Positions 12,361-54,982 of a stretch of DNA of 64,000 nt are shown here, piece after piece. Position 1 is the stretch's first letter, and each line of letters opens with the position of its first letter. The stretch is taken from positions 1 through 64,000 of the forward strand of contig JABIHH010000063.1 of assembly GCA_018649725.1 (NCBI GenBank). Direction: 5' to 3'. The DNA is from Rhodospirillaceae bacterium (lineage in GTDB: Bacteria > Pseudomonadota > Alphaproteobacteria > Rhodospirillales > UBA2165). The notes beneath the pieces were generated by a model that made no database searches, was not told where the DNA came from, and saw nothing but the letters and a program-made list of their open reading frames with translations. The translations under genes were made by a program, and so were the position numbers.

Positions 12361-14058
12361 TTATTCTGAAACTTCATCAAAGGCAAAACCGCCTTTGCCT
12401 TGGCGTTTAACCTTATACATGGCTTCATCGGCCCGGCCCATTAGTTGATCAAGCTGTTCATCGCTTCCCGAATTGTACATTGAGACACCAATCGAGAGCC
12501 CCAACGGATGATCATCATCGCCGGAATACTCTCTAAATATCAGGCTGTCTTCAATCATTGCCTGGGCGCGCGTTTCGGCGCTTACGACATCCATGCCATC
12601 AAGCCACACGGCAAACTCATCACCGCCGAACCTCGCCACCGCGTCACCGGGTCGAGAATGCTTTTCTAAAAAGCGCGCCAGGGCCATTAAAACTTCGTCG
12701 CCGCGATGATGACCATGCACATCATTAACCAGTTTGAAATTATCGAGGTCGACAAAAAGCAAGGCAGCCGTACCACCGGAATGTTGCAGCCGCTCCATCC
12801 GGCGTGGCAGTTCTTCTTCTAAGAAAGCGCGGCGGTTTAACAAGCCGGTGAGCTCATCGGTACGCGACAATCGCAAAATACGCTCATGATGCATCACCCG
12901 CTCAATCGCAATACCGAGTTGATCAGAGACCGTATCAATGAGCGTAAGTTCATCGGCTGACCAATCGGTGGTTTGATCGCCGCGCCAAACACAAATCGCG
13001 CCATTAACGTGTTGGCGATAACCGGTCGACGCAAGTAGACCGCTCCAATTGTCATCTGATATTGCCTGAGCCCCTTGAACGGTTTCGATCAGCTTAAATA
13101 CTTCATCATCTGGTGGCATGGCTTCTTCATCGCCGTATTTTGCCGTCATAACGAAATTTTTGCTGCCGCTGGAATATTCATCGCGGGTATAGATTTTGCA
13201 GCCAGCAAAGCCAGAAGCACGGACAATATATTTGATCGAGCCAGTCAGGGTTTTCAAAGGCTCAACTTCATCTCGAATAATACCAACGAGATGTTTCAGC
13301 AGTTTCTCCCGAATGCGTGCTTCGTCCAGAGCTGCTTTGCGAAGACTGTCTTCGGTAAAATCGCGGCACACGCCGCGGCTGCCCCGCCAGGCGCCGTGAT
13401 TGTCAAATAATGGCAAAGATGAGGCTCTTAATTGTGCAATGCTGCCATCCTGGCGGCGCATATTTACATCGATATCAGTGGCCGGCTCGGTGGCGGAAAA
13501 GGGGGAGGGCACACTTCGCTTGGTCGGCTCCAAACCAAAGGCAGCCGGATTCTGGCCCATAAAATCATCAGAGGCGTAATCCAATGCGCCGCCTGGCGAA
13601 ATAAAGATGAACGTGCCCTCGGGCCCGATCTCCCAGGCAAAGTCGCTTGAAACATCAACAAGGTCTTTATATCGCGCTCGTGAATCCACCAAAGCTGACA
13701 TCATGTTGCGCTCAAATGTTTGATCACGGGTCAGTAATAAAATGGCCTCACCATCTTGGACCGGCACGGCCGTAACATCGAGCTGCGTTTCATCACCAAC
13801 AACCACGCCATCGAGATTAGCCCCAACCCCGCTTAAGGCATTTTGGAGAAGATCATTGAGCGAATCTCGACTGCCATTAGAAACAAGGTCTGCCAGCACT
13901 TCACCTGCTGCATTACTTCCCAAAACAGTGCCGTCAGAGCTGACCAGGACAGCGCCTTCCGGATAGTTTTCCAGAAAGCTTGACGGTGCAGCATTCAGCG
14001 CGCCTAAGACCTTAGTCGATAATTCTTTAAGTGCTCCGTTAAGTGTTTGGCCAAACAT
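12361..14058 (-). CDS. PAS-GAF-GGDEF diguanylate cyclase
   Basis: Cytoplasmic protein of 565 residues without clear membrane segments. A degenerate PAS-like region lies near 15-110, a second PAS near 130-235, a GAF-like domain near 260-390 and a GGDEF domain from about 400 to the end. The active site is intact: FGGDEF with GGDEF at 478-482. The RxxD inhibitory site is also present as RPGD exactly five residues before it, so feedback inhibition by c-di-GMP is expected. The nearby motifs DLDNFKLVND and RADEAMYKVKRQGK are standard. It lies 80 bases downstream of the EAL gene on the same strand, suggesting a paired synthesis and breakdown module. Confidence 0.94.
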   Translation of the reverse strand: MFGQTLNGALKELSTKVLGALNAAPSSFLENYPEGAVLVSSDGTVLGSNAAGEVLADLVSNGSRDSLNDLLQNALSGVGANLDGVVVGDETQLDVTAVPVQDGEAILLLTRDQTFERNMMSALVDSRARYKDLVDVSSDFAWEIGPEGTFIFISPGGALDYASDDFMGQNPAAFGLEPTKRSVPSPFSATEPATDIDVNMRRQDGSIAQLRASSLPLFDNHGAWRGSRGVCRDFTEDSLRKAALDEARIREKLLKHLVGIIRDEVEPLKTLTGSIKYIVRASGFAGCKIYTRDEYSSGSKNFVMTAKYGDEEAMPPDDEVFKLIETVQGAQAISDDNWSGLLASTGYRQHVNGAICVWRGDQTTDWSADELTLIDTVSDQLGIAIERVMHHERILRLSRTDELTGLLNRRAFLEEELPRRMERLQHSGGTAALLFVDLDNFKLVNDVHGHHRGDEVLMALARFLEKHSRPGDAVARFGGDEFAVWLDGMDVVSAETRAQAMIEDSLIFREYSGDDDHPLGLSIGVSMYNSGSDEQLDQLMGRADEAMYKVKRQGKGGFAFDEVSE

Positions 14059-14138: not shown

Positions 14139-15824
14139 TCATAGGCTTGAGCGAACAATATGGCCGGATTCATCAAAGACCTCGATATCCGTCGATGGCT
14201 CACCGAACATGAATCCCTGAACGTAATCAACACCGCAATCCCTGACAAATTTCAAGGTATCATCGTCATCAATATATTCAGCAATGGTTTGAACGTCGAT
14301 ATCCTTGCACAAGCGCGCCAAAGCCGACAAGAAGGCCTTACCTTTGCGGGCCATGAGCGCATTTTTAACGGCACTACCATCAAGCTTCACGACATCTACT
14401 TCGAGACTGGCGAGGTATTGAAAGCTTGCTGCGCCGGCGCCGAAATCATCGAGGCAGACCTCATACCCTTCATCACGGAGCGTTTGGAAAAACCGATTGG
14501 CTGTCACCAGATCGGCAATTCGTGAGGATTCGGTTATTTCAAACAGCAACTTACCGCGCGCCCAAAAGTTTAATTTCAACAATTCCTGCAGGCCTTTGAG
14601 GTAATTCATATTGGTGATCGAGTTACCCGAGATATTCACCGCGATCGAATAGTCTTGGTCACGATGCTCAAACAGCCACTCAATGACTTTTTTCGCCATC
14701 GCCAGATCAAACTGCCAGATCAGACCAACTTCCTCGGCGAAGGTAATGGTTTCAAACGGGCTGACGCCTTCAGCTAAATTGTCGAACCGGACCAGCGCTT
14801 CATAGTGATGGATCTTACTGGTTGAAATATGAATGATCGGATGAAAAGCAACTTTGAATTTTCCGCCGGCAACGATGTCTCTAAATTCCTGCACCGAATG
14901 CATGGCTTCATCTACCATACCAGATAAATTCGAAGTAAAATCTTGGAGATTAAAATCACTGCCTTTGCCGGTTTTAAATTTGTTCATGGCGAACATCAGA
15001 CCATTGGCGAGATCTTCATCTTCGACATCATTGTCAGCGACGTCAAAAGTGGCCGCCTCGGCCTCAACACCTTCGCCGGTGGGATCAATTTCCTTGGTCG
15101 CTTGCGACAACTGATCTTGGATGTCTTGGATATCGACAGAGGCATCATGCACCAGGGCATATTTGCCGTCGGCAACTTCGGCTGCCGCATCGCCATTGAT
15201 CGAATTGGCCCGCAAAGAGGCACTCACCGTATCGACTAAAGATTTTTCAGCATCGTCGTCCAGACGATCTTTCAGCTTTTCCATATCCGGCATGGATACC
15301 AAGCTCACCTCGGCTTCAATACCGGCTTCTTTGGCCTCTTTCAGTTGCTGGCCGGCGAGTTCGGAAAAGGTCTCGGAGGTATAGAGACCGCTTTCGCCAT
15401 CGCGTGACAGGTTTTTTCCAGACGGCGTTGTTGTGCTGGTCGCCCCTGCCCGCAAAGCCAAAAAGAAGTGATCACTAAAATCGCCGAGACGATAGCCGGC
15501 GAAAGAAAGCGGCTGGGAGTCCCGTTGCTCAGAACTTAGCCGAATGGTGGCATTTTCAATGCGCCCGCGTTTTTTGGCAATATTGATCAGTTGTTGGGCC
15601 AGGGTCCGGTCACCTTCGGCGACCAGATCAATAAAATTTTTGCCCATCAGATCTGCCGGCGCACAACCGATCAATGCTTCCGTCGTCCCGGCAGCGAAAG
15701 TTACTTCCTGAGCTTCGTTCAACTCGATCAGCGCATCTGCCCAGCAAAATGCAAAGGCAACAAACCGGTCACGCTCCGAACGCGCATCGGCAACTTGATT
15801 TTCTGGTGTCGTGTCAGTTACCAT
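14139..15824 (-). CDS. PAS, degenerate GGDEF and EAL c-di-GMP phosphodiesterase
   Basis: Cytoplasmic protein of 561 residues. A PAS-like region spans about 22-125. Residues 145-235 look like a decayed GGDEF domain (LYTSETFSELAGQQL near the start, and EVADGKYALV where RFGGDEFAVW is expected). The EAL domain (about 315-550) keeps the catalytic set: Glu342 in YEALVRF, NISG, FEITES, DDFGAG, VKLDGS, AEYID and VQGF. It should hydrolyse c-di-GMP. The degenerate GGDEF could be a GTP-binding regulatory part, as in other hybrid phosphodiesterases; that is inference. It runs in tandem with the diguanylate cyclase that follows. Confidence 0.9.
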   Translation of the reverse strand: MVTDTTPENQVADARSERDRFVAFAFCWADALIELNEAQEVTFAAGTTEALIGCAPADLMGKNFIDLVAEGDRTLAQQLINIAKKRGRIENATIRLSSEQRDSQPLSFAGYRLGDFSDHFFLALRAGATSTTTPSGKNLSRDGESGLYTSETFSELAGQQLKEAKEAGIEAEVSLVSMPDMEKLKDRLDDDAEKSLVDTVSASLRANSINGDAAAEVADGKYALVHDASVDIQDIQDQLSQATKEIDPTGEGVEAEAATFDVADNDVEDEDLANGLMFAMNKFKTGKGSDFNLQDFTSNLSGMVDEAMHSVQEFRDIVAGGKFKVAFHPIIHISTSKIHHYEALVRFDNLAEGVSPFETITFAEEVGLIWQFDLAMAKKVIEWLFEHRDQDYSIAVNISGNSITNMNYLKGLQELLKLNFWARGKLLFEITESSRIADLVTANRFFQTLRDEGYEVCLDDFGAGAASFQYLASLEVDVVKLDGSAVKNALMARKGKAFLSALARLCKDIDVQTIAEYIDDDDTLKFVRDCGVDYVQGFMFGEPSTDIEVFDESGHIVRSSL

Positions 15825-31937: not shown

Positions 31938-32843
31938 TTGGCTAAAAAATCTGGTAAAAAATCGGCAAAGAAAAAGCCGGCAGGTGGATTCTTAGATCGG
32001 ATTAAAAAAACCGTTGCTGGTGATGGTAATGGCGGCATGAACGGCGTCGTCGAAGATGACGGTATTGATCTGGAAACCGGCACCATTAAAGTCGATGATT
32101 CGCCCCCTGAAGTGGTAATTTCGACCGCTGAGGTCCTCCGTGAAAGCACCGAAAGCGAAAGCGACGTCGTACGCGGCAATGAAGGCAAAGTCTTTGTTAT
32201 CGATTTAGGTCCGTTTTTCGAAGTAATGGGTACAGATCCTGCCAGCAAACTTGCCCGCTCTCTCATTACCTTTGGTGAAAACCTATTGGCCCGGATAATT
32301 GGTCGGAGCGGTACTTATACGCTGCATGGTGATACAGCTTTTCTGTTCCGCCTAACGGTTGACGATGTCGCAGGTTGGAAAATGGCATCAAAAATCGTCA
32401 ATGAATTAGGGGTTCAATTCCTTAGAGACGGCTTTAAGCCGGAAGAGATTCTACCGGAAGTTTTGGCCATGGTTGATGAAAAAGATGCCTATGATGCCGA
32501 TGGTAATATCAATGTCGAAAAAGCTCTGGAAGCACGCATCCCTTATATGGAGATAAAAATCGTCAAAGATGAAACTGGAGCTGAATGGTTCTACGAAGAG
32601 GGTTTCGATCCTGAAAAAAAGAAAGTTGATCCTGAGTGGCAGCATGACCCGAACGTTGATCCGGACGCCGAGTACAATCCCGAATGGGACGTCGATGCCG
32701 AAGCCATTCGATCGGCCACTTCACGGGTCGAGCGTGGCCAGGAACGCCGTAAATTAAAATTGAAAATCCAACCAGAGAAAAATCGCCGCAAAAATAACCA
32801 TGGCCGCCGCGATTCGGATAATCCCAATACGTCTGTATGGTAG
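31938..32843 (+). CDS. Unknown protein, paralogue A, with degenerate GGDEF-like core
   Basis: A 301-residue protein without a recognised name. The basic N-terminus (MAKKSGKKSAKKKP) is followed by a motif shared with the 38.7 kb paralogue: DGIDLETGTIKVDD...VVISTAEVLRE. The central region reads like a GGDEF fold: VFVIDLGPFFEVMG aligns with LLFVDLDNFKLVND, and YTLHGDTAFLFRL with ARFGGDEFAVWL, but the catalytic signature is replaced by HGDTAF. No cyclase activity is expected. The charged tail ends GRRDSDNPNTSVW. I chose TTG at 31938, preceded by GAGG at 9 bases, over the track start at 31923. It is convergent with the FAD monooxygenase (3-base gap). Confidence 0.8.
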   Translation: MAKKSGKKSAKKKPAGGFLDRIKKTVAGDGNGGMNGVVEDDGIDLETGTIKVDDSPPEVVISTAEVLRESTESESDVVRGNEGKVFVIDLGPFFEVMGTDPASKLARSLITFGENLLARIIGRSGTYTLHGDTAFLFRLTVDDVAGWKMASKIVNELGVQFLRDGFKPEEILPEVLAMVDEKDAYDADGNINVEKALEARIPYMEIKIVKDETGAEWFYEEGFDPEKKKVDPEWQHDPNVDPDAEYNPEWDVDAEAIRSATSRVERGQERRKLKLKIQPEKNRRKNNHGRRDSDNPNTSVW

Positions 32844-38749: not shown

Positions 38750-39571
38750 ATGACGGGAGATGAAGAAATGAAGTCGAGTCTACTTAAGAAAATCAAAGAT
38801 TCCGTCATTGGTGAAGAAGAAAAAATCGACATTGATGGCGTTGATCTGGATAGCGGCACTATTATTATCGAAGAGACTGATCCGAGCGAGATCGTCAGTA
38901 CTGGTGCCGTCCTGCGTGAAGGCTTTGATCATGAAACGGATATTTTCTTCAAAGGCTATACCGGCACTGTTTTCGTTTTAGACCTCAATCCCTTCTTTGA
39001 AGCGATCGGCACGACCTCGACTTCTAGAATAGGTGAAAGCCTTGTCACTTTTACGGACAATATTTTAACTCGGGAATTAGAGGGCGTTGGCTCGTTTAAG
39101 AACTACAGCAATGAGCAATTCTTTTTCCGGCTCAACAAAGATGATGCCGAAGGCTGGGTTATGGCGGCCAAAGCGGTCAATGCGGTTGGCGAACATTTTC
39201 TCCGCGATTCTTATGAAGCCGATGACATGATTTCAGAATTATTGGCGGCGGTTAATCCGGAAGATCTTAAGGGTGCCGATGGTGTTTTTGATGGTGCCAA
39301 GGCGCTGGAAAATAAAATGACTTTTGGTTCCATCGCGGAAGCCATTAAGAAAACGGTAGAGCCCCTTTGGGAAACACTGAAGCACAATGGCGTTAAGCAT
39401 GTTGCAAGTACTGAATGGGAAACCGAAACCAAAGATATGCGCGATGCGCTTGAAAAAGTCGAACGCGGCCCTGATCGCCGCCAAAAATTAATCAAAGCGC
39501 CGGCTCATATGGAACGCCGTAAAACCACCGGTCGCCGTGACATCGACAATCCGAACAAGTCAGTCTGGTAG
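38750..39571 (+). CDS. Unknown protein, paralogue B, with degenerate GGDEF-like core
   Basis: 273-residue soluble protein, paralogous to the gene at 31.9 kb. Shared elements are DGVDLDSGTIIIEETDPSEIVSTGAVLRE near residue 29-57, the core VFVLDLNPFFEAIG (about 74-87), NYSNEQFFFRLNKDDAEGW (about 118-136), a region ending in VERGPDRRQK, and the tail RRKTTGRRDIDNPNKSVW. The core aligns with the GGDEF fold, with SNEQF where GGDEF would be. No membrane segment or signal peptide. The ATG has GAGGG about 6 bases upstream. It ends at a terminator shared with the convergent membrane protein gene. No function can be named. Confidence 0.85.
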   Translation: MTGDEEMKSSLLKKIKDSVIGEEEKIDIDGVDLDSGTIIIEETDPSEIVSTGAVLREGFDHETDIFFKGYTGTVFVLDLNPFFEAIGTTSTSRIGESLVTFTDNILTRELEGVGSFKNYSNEQFFFRLNKDDAEGWVMAAKAVNAVGEHFLRDSYEADDMISELLAAVNPEDLKGADGVFDGAKALENKMTFGSIAEAIKKTVEPLWETLKHNGVKHVASTEWETETKDMRDALEKVERGPDRRQKLIKAPAHMERRKTTGRRDIDNPNKSVW

Positions 39572-42761: not shown

Positions 42762-44435
42762 ATGTGGGAAAGAAGAATAAGAATGTGGTCGGGGATTATC
42801 GTTGCCTGCTATGTTATTCCCCATGTTATCAACCACGCGCTTGGCCTAATTTCCTACGAAACTATGGAAACCATGCGCTATGGCATGAAGGTTATCTGGG
42901 GGCCACCGATTGGTGCAACACTCCTGGCGCTCGCCTTCCTGACCCATTTTTTCTCGGCGTTAATTTCGCTCTATCGACGCAGTTCGCTGAGAATGCCGCT
43001 TTGGGAAGCAGCCCAAATTGCTCTCGGCATCCTGATTTTCCCAATGATTCTCATTCATGTTATTGGTTCAGGCATTGCCGGTTCCATCATTGATTTTGAT
43101 GTCACCTATGAATATATGATCACGGTGCTTTGGATAGCCAAACCTCTGCGTGGACTTCAACAAAGCTTTATGCTGATTATTGTATGGGGCCATTTATGGG
43201 TTGGCTTGCATTTTTGGCTACGCCTCAAATCCTGGTATCAAAAATGGTTCACCCTCATTTACGCCTTTGCCATCGTGACGCCCGTTCTGGCTTTATTGGG
43301 TTTCGCTCGAATTGGTCGGCAGTTGGAGCAAACCGCGGCAAATGACCCCGCATTTCTTACCCGCGTCTTTAAACCGGTGAACGACTATGGTGCAGAAAGT
43401 CTGAGCAATCTCCTGGGCCTAGAATTTATTGGCTGGTATGTCTTTGGTGGATTGGTGATCTCAGTATTTATCGCCCGCTTTATCCGCCGCCTCTATCGCA
43501 ATCGTCACGGTATCTACCGTCTTCACTTAACCAACAATATGACCCTCCGGGCACCCGTGGGACAAACAATCTTGGAGACTCTTCGTATTGCAGGTCTGCC
43601 ACTCGCGTCAGTTTGCGGCGGGCGCGGACGTTGTACGACCTGCCGGGTTCATGTCGGAGAAGCTTATCACGACCTTCCCGCGCCGGAGGAGTTAGAACGC
43701 AAAGCCCTAATACGCGTGAACGCAGAACCCGAAGTTCGTCTCGCCTGCCAGGCAAGGCCGCGGCGCGATTTATCCATCACACCGCTACTTCCGCCAACCG
43801 CCACAGTGAGAGATGCCAATCGTCCGGGCGGCATTCAAGGCCGCGAGCAAAAAATCGCTGTTATGTTTATCGATCTTAGGGGGTCAACTAAATTGGGCGA
43901 AGAAAAGTTGCCCTATGACGTATTGTTTATTCTCAATCAGTTTTTTGCCGAAATGTCGGAAGCCTTAACCGAAACCGACGGGCATTATGCGCAGTTTTCC
44001 GGGGACGGTTTAATGGCGCTTTACGGACTTGAAACAGATGTCGATCAAGGTTGCCGAGATGCAATCCAAGGGGCCATCGCAATGGTGGATAAACTAGCTG
44101 CCCTGAACGAAAGGCTCGTCCAAGAAGTCAAAGAACCTTTACGAATGGGTATCGGAATTCATTGCGGCGAAGTCATCGTCGGTACCATGGGACCGCCAAC
44201 AGCGCAAAATTTCTCGGCCATTGGTGACGACGTCAACGTGACGGCACGGCTTGAAAGCCTAACCAAAGAATATGGCGTTCCGTTGATTATTTCAAAGGCC
44301 GCAGCTACCTGCGCCGGTCTTGATGTGACAGGTTTGTCGCAACATCAAGCCGATGTTCGGGGCCGCGACGGTGACATTACGATTTACACCATCGCAGAGC
44401 CTGACAAGCTCATCAGCGATTTAGTTTCGAGCTAG
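42762..44435 (+). CDS. Membrane-anchored adenylate cyclase with ferredoxin domain (CyaC-like)
   Basis: 557 residues in three parts. The first 250 residues have six hydrophobic segments with many histidines (VIPHVINHALG, FLTHFF, ILIHVIG, WGHLWVGLHFW), resembling the heme b cytochrome anchor of succinate dehydrogenase. A plant-type [2Fe-2S] ferredoxin domain follows, with Cys285, Cys291, Cys294 and Cys329. The class III cyclase domain starts near residue 362 (IAVMFIDLRGSTKL) with a second metal-binding Asp in FSGDGLMALYG and IGDDVNVTARLES. A redox- or quinone-controlled cAMP synthase is the likely role, as described for CyaC of Sinorhizobium. It lies alone on its strand. Confidence 0.9.
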   Translation: MWERRIRMWSGIIVACYVIPHVINHALGLISYETMETMRYGMKVIWGPPIGATLLALAFLTHFFSALISLYRRSSLRMPLWEAAQIALGILIFPMILIHVIGSGIAGSIIDFDVTYEYMITVLWIAKPLRGLQQSFMLIIVWGHLWVGLHFWLRLKSWYQKWFTLIYAFAIVTPVLALLGFARIGRQLEQTAANDPAFLTRVFKPVNDYGAESLSNLLGLEFIGWYVFGGLVISVFIARFIRRLYRNRHGIYRLHLTNNMTLRAPVGQTILETLRIAGLPLASVCGGRGRCTTCRVHVGEAYHDLPAPEELERKALIRVNAEPEVRLACQARPRRDLSITPLLPPTATVRDANRPGGIQGREQKIAVMFIDLRGSTKLGEEKLPYDVLFILNQFFAEMSEALTETDGHYAQFSGDGLMALYGLETDVDQGCRDAIQGAIAMVDKLAALNERLVQEVKEPLRMGIGIHCGEVIVGTMGPPTAQNFSAIGDDVNVTARLESLTKEYGVPLIISKAAATCAGLDVTGLSQHQADVRGRDGDITIYTIAEPDKLISDLVSS

Positions 44436-53713: not shown

Positions 53714-54982
53714 CTATCGCACTGCCGTCACGTCGATCTGAAAAAGAGCGCCGGGGCGCGTGATGGCAGGTAGCTGAACAAAAGTACTGACGGGTGGGTG
53801 AGTGACCAAATGAGGTGCATGCTTTTCATAATACTCAACCTCGACCTTGCGCATTGTTGGGTAGTCTTCGATATGGCGGAGCATCATCAGGGTCTTGACG
53901 ATATTATCCATTGAACTTCCGGCCTCGGTTAATGTCTCGCGAACCTGATCAAGGGCAGCGATGATCTGACCTTCAACCGCCTCCGCCGGATCTCCACCAT
54001 CACAGCCGGATAGAAACAGCAGATTGCCAGCCCCAACGCAGGCCGCTGCATTAGGCGTACCAGGGTAAAATTCAACTCGCCAATCTGGTGATGGAAGACC
54101 GCCAACGCCAATTGCCTCGACCTCTACCAAAAATTCCGGCCGCGGTAATTCATCGACGATAATAGCTGTGCTGGCAGGCATATTTCTGCCGATTTCCGGC
54201 ACGTATTTCTCATAAAACGCGCGCTCCACCTCGCGATAGCGCTGCAACTCATTGAGGTCTTTGAGAAATACATTTGTTTTGACCACGCTGGCGAGAGAGC
54301 CGCCGGTCTCTTCCATGCCGATTTTAATTTTTTCCAGGACAATCTCACTTTGCTCGATGAAGTCCGAGGTTTCTATCTTGACCGTGTCATGATCCAATGC
54401 CTGGCAGCCTGACACGATCACCAGATTTCCCACCATTTGAGTACGGGCAAACTTCGCGTGCTCCTTCGGCACATGGGGATAGGCGAGTTCCTTACCACCC
54501 CAATATTCGGGATAATATTTGACGTTCCAATCAGGCGCATTGCGGTCGATCGCAGCAATAACTTCATATTCAACAAGATACTCGGGCCGTGCCAGCTCCG
54601 GCACGACCATCAAAGTTGCCGCCGGTGGTTTGCCGATTAGGTGCGGCGCATGTTTTTCGTAATATTCGGTCTCGGATTTACGCACGGCCTGATAGTCATC
54701 CAGGCTGCGTACCAGGAAAAAAGTTTTGACGATGTTTTCCATGGAACTACCGGCATCTTCCAAGGCCTTCCTGGCTTTATCAAGTGCCACAGTCACCTGA
54801 TCGCCGGCATTGTCCGGGGCCGGTTGGCCGGAAAGCGTGTCCTGGCCGCCGCAGCCCGATACAAAAACGAGATTGCCGATGGCAATGCTTTGGGCGAATT
54901 TAGGATGTTCCTTTGGCACTTCCGGATAAGCCAGCCGTTTTCCTTCCCAGTAAGCCGGGTTATAGGTGATGTTCCAATCCAT
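53714..54982 (-). CDS. Triple-domain RidA-like protein
   Basis: 422-residue protein made of three tandem RidA (YjgF/UK114) domains, about 1-140, 150-285 and 290-422. Each has the PDWN-like start, GNLVFVSGC or similar, ALDKARKALEDAGSSMENIVKTFFLVRSLDDY-like core and a C-terminal strand. RidA proteins are normally 130-residue homotrimers, so this is a single-chain version. The catalytic Arg (PARS in E. coli RidA) is replaced in each repeat: PPAAT, MPAST and PPVST. Imine deaminase activity is therefore doubtful. GGAGGGGG precedes the ATG. Stands alone between convergent and intergenic regions. Confidence 0.9.
   Translation of the reverse strand: MDWNITYNPAYWEGKRLAYPEVPKEHPKFAQSIAIGNLVFVSGCGGQDTLSGQPAPDNAGDQVTVALDKARKALEDAGSSMENIVKTFFLVRSLDDYQAVRKSETEYYEKHAPHLIGKPPAATLMVVPELARPEYLVEYEVIAAIDRNAPDWNVKYYPEYWGGKELAYPHVPKEHAKFARTQMVGNLVIVSGCQALDHDTVKIETSDFIEQSEIVLEKIKIGMEETGGSLASVVKTNVFLKDLNELQRYREVERAFYEKYVPEIGRNMPASTAIIVDELPRPEFLVEVEAIGVGGLPSPDWRVEFYPGTPNAAACVGAGNLLFLSGCDGGDPAEAVEGQIIAALDQVRETLTEAGSSMDNIVKTLMMLRHIEDYPTMRKVEVEYYEKHAPHLVTHPPVSTFVQLPAITRPGALFQIDVTAVR

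Follow-up and report, generated by a model that had tools for sequence, protein, structure and literature searches.

Degenerate GGDEF-like proteins with a Cle-like arginine-rich tail: a paralogous pair of possible c-di-GMP adaptors from a Rhodospirillaceae genome

Background

Inactive GGDEF domains are known from several signalling proteins. The receptors and regulators LapD, FimX and CsrD combine such a domain with a second, inactive EAL domain after it, and in LapD and FimX c-di-GMP is bound within the EAL domain, which carries an ExLxR motif (PMC3032553, PMC10333796). In PopA, PelD and CdgI the GGDEF domain is dead and no active domain accompanies it; these proteins bind c-di-GMP at an intact RxxD I-site and have been proposed to act as receptors or adaptors (PMC10333796, PMC5635695). 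C-di-GMP is also bound by the arginine-rich region (ARR) of the Cle proteins, a C-terminus of the YFGPDRR type that is carried by receiver domains and whose motif is a tandem [YF]xGP[DE][RK]R. In CleD, R156 is essential for c-di-GMP binding and R169 contributes to it, and the Cle ARR was still able to bind c-di-GMP when grafted onto other proteins (PMC10333796; PMC5677366). Five percent of the ARR hits in the Cle paper were without a known domain, and whether the family described below was included there is not stated (PMC5677366).

The two genes analyzed here, called gene 1 and gene 2, are encoded in a stretch of 64,000 nucleotides, referred to as the window, from a Rhodospirillaceae bacterium. 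Like LapD, FimX and CsrD, their products have an inactive, GGDEF-like domain, and in long relatives an inactive EAL-like domain follows it as well. Unlike in those proteins, the domains are not recognized by Pfam, the pair in the window has no EAL domain, and the ExLxR motif was not found in the long relatives examined. The pair resembles PopA, PelD and CdgI in lacking an active partner domain, but its I-site has been lost, which leaves a C-terminal tail as the candidate binding site. As in the Cle peptide (PDB 6sft), this tail is arginine-rich, with two repeats ending in RR and key arginines 13 residues apart. It differs from Cle in that the carrier is a pseudo-GGDEF domain rather than a receiver, no aromatic residue is present, and GRRxxDNPNxSVW has been added. 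Degenerate GGDEF-EAL proteins and Cle peptides are each known; their combination appears undescribed in the sources searched.

Results and discussion

A conserved pair of paralogs

The two genes and their parts are as follows, with the basis of each assignment in brackets.

31938..32843, + strand: gene 1, 301 aa, a pseudo-GGDEF protein ending in an arginine-rich tail (ORF; TTG start as in orthologs)
32055..32144, + strand: gene 1, N-terminal conserved peptide DDGIDLETGTIKVDD...VISTAEVLRE (alignments)
32181..32549, + strand: gene 1, pseudo-GGDEF domain, with GDTAF (32328-32342) at the GGDEF position (domain profile bounds, hhalign register, site counts)
32718..32840, + strand: gene 1, arginine-rich tail, weakly matching the Cle peptide profile (profile and tail comparisons)
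38750..39571, + strand: gene 2, 273 aa, the paralog of gene 1, also a pseudo-GGDEF protein ending in an arginine-rich tail (ORF; paralogy)
38834..38920, + strand: gene 2, N-terminal conserved peptide DGVDLDSGTIIIEE...IVSTGAVLRE (alignments)
38960..39325, + strand: gene 2, pseudo-GGDEF domain, with SNEQF (39107-39121) at the GGDEF position (domain profile bounds, model, Foldseek)
39449..39568, + strand: gene 2, arginine-rich tail, Cle-like, with R244 and R257 13 residues apart (profile and tail comparisons)

The start of gene 1 was set at the TTG at 31938. The protein that begins there, MAKKSGKKSAKKK, agrees with the starts of its orthologs (MAKSAKKRAKK, MAKTAKKKAAK), and a GAGG sequence precedes this codon; the alternative ORF start, 31923, probably lies too far upstream.

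The original prediction was of a paralogous pair at 31.9 kb and 38.7 kb sharing three ordered blocks, and this was borne out. Both ORFs were found, and their proteins are 36% identical across 285 residues (E 7e-61), a similarity far above chance, so they are paralogs. The blocks are an N-terminal motif with the consensus DG(I/V)DL..GTI...(V/I)ST..VLRE, a domain containing VF(V/I)(I/L)DL.PFFE, and a charged tail, RGxxRR...RRK..GRRDxDNPNxSVW. The genome (88% complete) yielded no further paralog. Both paralogs were present in identical gene order in two further genomes of the genus (L152; L082 with L005), one of them after argG and the other after a gene for a helix-turn-helix regulator. Values of dN were 0.15-0.26 and those of dS 1.85 or more, near saturation, indicating that both genes are under purifying selection.

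The middle domain and the GGDEF fold

The middle block had been aligned by eye with the GGDEF domain. Pfam and NCBIfam models gave no match above noise for either protein, and PF00990 gave no hit to the pair, so the Pfam cut-off was not reached. A profile was built from 54 middle domains of the wider family and compared by hhalign with 23 local GGDEF domains. The match was 90.5% with a score of 42.0, as against 3.2% for the reversed profile and 15.8% (score 24.7) for the best of 30 column shuffles. This result depended on widening the family: the 12 closest members alone matched GGDEF at only 9%, and the alignment made by eye is therefore unprovable from the pair by itself. The register that hhalign chose was the one read by eye: DLxPFF falls on DLDRFK, and GGDEF is matched by GDTAF or SNEQF. 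The HGDTAF of the earlier reading begins one residue early.

GGDEF was the commonest weak Pfam hit among individual family members (3 of 32, best E 0.083), and a profile search of PDB sequences returned eight weak hits, four of them GGDEF. AlphaFold2 models, built from an alignment of four sequences, were of low confidence for both proteins (mean pLDDT 52-56). In the gene 2 model (mean pLDDT 55.7, core mostly 65-79) the order of strands and helices was that of a GGDEF domain, and Foldseek, run against the PDB, placed 18 GGDEF domains at the head of its list, the best being 5euh at E 0.029, with no hit reaching E 0.001. The gene 1 model was poorer; mixed folds came first and GGDEF entries appeared only from rank 29. 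Descent from GGDEF has good support in the family as a whole, and in the pair by way of its homology to the family; we regard it as highly probable for both proteins.

A wider family with long GGDEF-EAL relatives

Family members were found in 19 of 60 related genomes with a single-sequence search and in 105 of 317 genomes of the order with a profile search. Close relatives are 260-320 aa long and contain all three blocks; in a species-level genome collection, two Rhodospirillaceae MAGs were the only near relatives with a name. Extended to the class, the domain-profile search gave hits in 66 of 385 genomes, and several of these proteins begin with PAS-PAS or receiver domains. Comparison of relatives with plasmids (tblastn) and a scan of viral contigs gave no match.

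Longer relatives, of roughly 410-740 aa, carry the middle domain N-terminally. Their C-terminal part matched local EAL domains at 93% over 226 columns in hhalign, compared to 0.1% for the reversed profile and 1.3% for the best of 15 shuffles. One long relative (L074) has a weak PF00563 match (E 0.016), and in a distant bridge relative (L216) a single protein matched both PF00990 (E 1e-4) and PF00563 (E 3e-4); its PF00990 score of 22.6 bits was the best among the relatives and still below the Pfam cut-off of 23.8. The EAL-like domain that follows the GGDEF-like domain in the long relatives is absent from the pair in the window, which ends in the tail.

These relatives bear on whether the core might instead be an unrelated ferredoxin-like domain whose similarity to GGDEF is convergent. 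The low score of the core clade by itself and the mixed folds that head the hits of the gene 1 model would be expected of such a domain. The canonical GGDEF-EAL order of the long relatives, and the detection of both domains by Pfam in L216, would not, and we consider convergence very improbable.

A tree of the 54 domains, read without a fixed root, requires that EAL-bearing and EAL-less forms interchanged at least three to four times, and the pair fell in a clade made up entirely of EAL-less proteins. The simplest reading is that the EAL domain may have been lost more than once. No named alphaproteobacterial family of this kind was found in the literature searched, which included few subscription journals, and a family of doubly degenerate GGDEF-EAL proteins that extends across the Alphaproteobacteria appears undescribed in those sources. 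No partner gene shared throughout the family turned up in the 20 loci inspected; there were local patterns only, such as a family gene after sdhB in two genera. DUF2336-like genes, recognized by eye, were located near family members in L142, L083 and L152. In three relatives (L116, L062 and L126) the linker after the pseudo-GGDEF domain contained repeated Trp-containing units, e.g. QWTTLERGEKK, and gene 1 has a weaker unit of this type, PEWxxDP; these units are possibly a short binding motif.

Loss of catalytic and nucleotide-binding residues

GGDEF enzymes that have lost the residues considered here lack ordinary cyclase activity, and canonical binding of GTP, or of ligand at the I-site, is unlikely in them. 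In place of GG(D/E)EF and two metal-binding aspartates, the pair has GDTAF or SNEQF and the first Asp only. That first Asp was retained in 20 of the 54 family domains, gene 1 and gene 2 among them, and the second was replaced in at least 53, including both window proteins. At the fourth GGDEF position none of the nine most frequent residues was Glu. Every one of the 54 domains has I, L, V or M instead of the guanine-binding Asn; the Asp that comes next was Gly in 51, and the I-site Arg was present in just 3. With catalytic, guanine-binding and I-site residues lost, the two proteins are almost certainly devoid of cyclase activity, and canonical binding of GTP or of an I-site ligand by the core is unlikely.

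It had been proposed that the proteins sense GTP or c-di-GMP, and a core that binds GTP, c-di-GMP or another nucleotide in a remodelled site would allow this. Some residues are kept: of the 54 domains, 48 have D or E at the third GGDEF position and 52 an aromatic residue at the fifth, and both window proteins retain the first metal Asp. Set against the universal replacement of the guanine-binding Asn, the loss of the second metal Asp and the near absence of the I-site Arg, these features leave sensing through the core an unlikely explanation, and GTP sensing by this route was judged improbable.

An arginine-rich tail resembling the Cle peptide

The last 40 residues of the pair form a conserved unit, RVxRGPxRR...RRK..GRRDxDNPNxSVW, in which the arginines are the most conserved residues. 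When genomes were searched with the tail, a recurring set of CheY-like receivers ending in YFGPDRRRR...Y.GPERRK was also recovered, aligned at tail positions 7-27 only; this C-terminus is the Cle ARR of the literature (PMC10333796; PMC5677366). The corresponding receiver peptide of a genus-mate gave E 7e-4 against the CleD peptide of known structure (6sft).

A profile built solely from Cle-like receivers gave the gene 2 tail 14.8 bits, matched by none of 200 shuffles, and the gene 1 tail just 1.3 bits, matched by 7 of 200; 11 of 28 short proteins scored above all 200 shuffles, a null that does not preserve the clustering of arginines. Among 2622 ORFs scored, nearly all of those at 9.4 bits or more were Cle-like receivers or family members, the exceptions being two ORFs, in L183 and L216, with receiver-like peptides. 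A profile of 15 tails matched a profile of 19 Cle-like peptides at 95.7% (score 34.4) in hhalign, and the 50 shuffles used as a control reached at most 3.9% (best score 12.5). The spacing of R244 and R257 in gene 2 equals that of R156 and R169 in CleD. Relative to the tandem Cle motif, gene 2 has GPDRR and then ERR at the Cle spacing, and gene 1 has GQERR and then NRR; in both tails the second repeat is incomplete and the aromatic residue absent. No Response_reg hit was obtained in either protein, the carrier of the tail being the pseudo-GGDEF domain. A PilZ identity for the tail was rejected, with neither a PilZ domain nor a DxSxxG motif present after the arginines.

Judged from these similarities, binding of c-di-GMP by the tail is plausible, with a chance that we would put just short of even. 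Alternatively, the proteins may be structural adaptors that do not sense c-di-GMP, in which the pseudo-GGDEF domain pairs with real GGDEF or EAL proteins or with other partners, and the target of the basic tail is nucleic acid, a membrane or a partner. The lost nucleotide sites of the core and the missing aromatic residue are in keeping with such a role; isolated degenerate GGDEF domains of E. coli contact other GGDEF domains specifically (PMC5635695), and an arginine-rich tail may have nucleic acid or a membrane, rather than c-di-GMP, as its ligand. A purely structural tail is harder to reconcile with a likeness to Cle that is specific in repeat and spacing and with arginines that are its most conserved residues. 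We regard this alternative as somewhat less probable than sensing through the tail.

Two observations concern other carriers of such peptides. In a genus-mate (L154:1064-1687) a small protein with two predicted membrane helices has the full tail of the pair and is encoded beside a gene for a Cle-like receiver. Cle-like receivers, with a CheY fold and an arginine-rich C-terminus, are widespread in the order (L194, L197, L199, L202), and typical ones occur in the window's own genome (L189; G000:C20:47975-48037). Several of them end in LSQAEVEALL. The N-terminal motif of FliM that binds CheY is LSQxEIDxLL, which this peptide resembles, and a receiver bearing it could be self-inhibiting.

Proposed function

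The reading that we tentatively prefer, and to which we give slightly less than an even chance, is that the pair are adaptors with a dead GGDEF domain that sense c-di-GMP through the Cle-like tail. Both would be catalytically dead GGDEF-fold members of the doubly degenerate GGDEF-EAL family in which the EAL part is missing and the arginine-rich peptide stands in its place. The tail would bind c-di-GMP produced by the real diguanylate cyclases of the cell; binding would alter the docking of the pseudo-GGDEF domain, or of the N-terminal peptide together with the Trp-ending tail, on a partner protein, and the pair would thereby relay c-di-GMP levels. The GGDEF-like core, undescribed family and adaptor role of the original prediction fit the evidence, and sensing of GTP through the core is not supported by it; c-di-GMP sensing stays plausible, but by way of the charged tail, a route that had not been foreseen. 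More tentative still is the broader proposal that a short branch of this undescribed family has swapped its EAL domain for a c-di-GMP-binding Cle-like peptide and acts beside Cle receivers in one circuit.

If this is correct, a dead cyclase homolog receives the signal made by its enzymatic relatives, and current domain libraries miss a c-di-GMP effector architecture in Alphaproteobacteria, the class of the family, in which motility and attachment are under c-di-GMP control. An output would then be assigned to many proteins of this class that have PAS or receiver input and none annotated so far. The c-di-GMP-binding peptide would then occur on carriers as varied as receivers, pseudo-GGDEF domains and a small membrane protein, an arrangement whose possibility was proved by grafting in the Cle work.

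c-di-GMP signalling in the genome and the order

As had been noted, the window encodes a true diguanylate cyclase (12361-14058, PF00990 E 3e-38) and an EAL protein (14139-15824, PF00563 E 4e-56); the decayed GGDEF domain suggested for the latter was not detected by Pfam. The genome contains six strong GGDEF domains, FliM and PilZ, so c-di-GMP signalling is likely. Fourteen genomes of the order are devoid of a strong GGDEF domain. The protein family was absent from 13 of them, and the copies in the remaining one are interrupted by internal stops. Fisher's test for co-occurrence of the protein family with GGDEF, in which kinship is ignored, gave p = 0.04 across the order and p = 0.03 within the taxonomic family.

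In four genomes from two genera (L135, L137, L138, L139) sdhB is followed by a third family member, and past the opposite end of the sdh operon lies the gene of a Cle-like receiver. The window's genome has a Cle-like receiver at this position of the sdh operon, with the family gene missing there.

Two other genes in the window were examined by eye. One (42762-44435, + strand) probably encodes a nucleotidyl cyclase of class III that has membrane helices at its N-terminus and, in addition, a ferredoxin-like domain of the 2Fe-2S type, and the other (53714-54982, - strand) a 422 aa protein resembling three tandem RidA-like domains.
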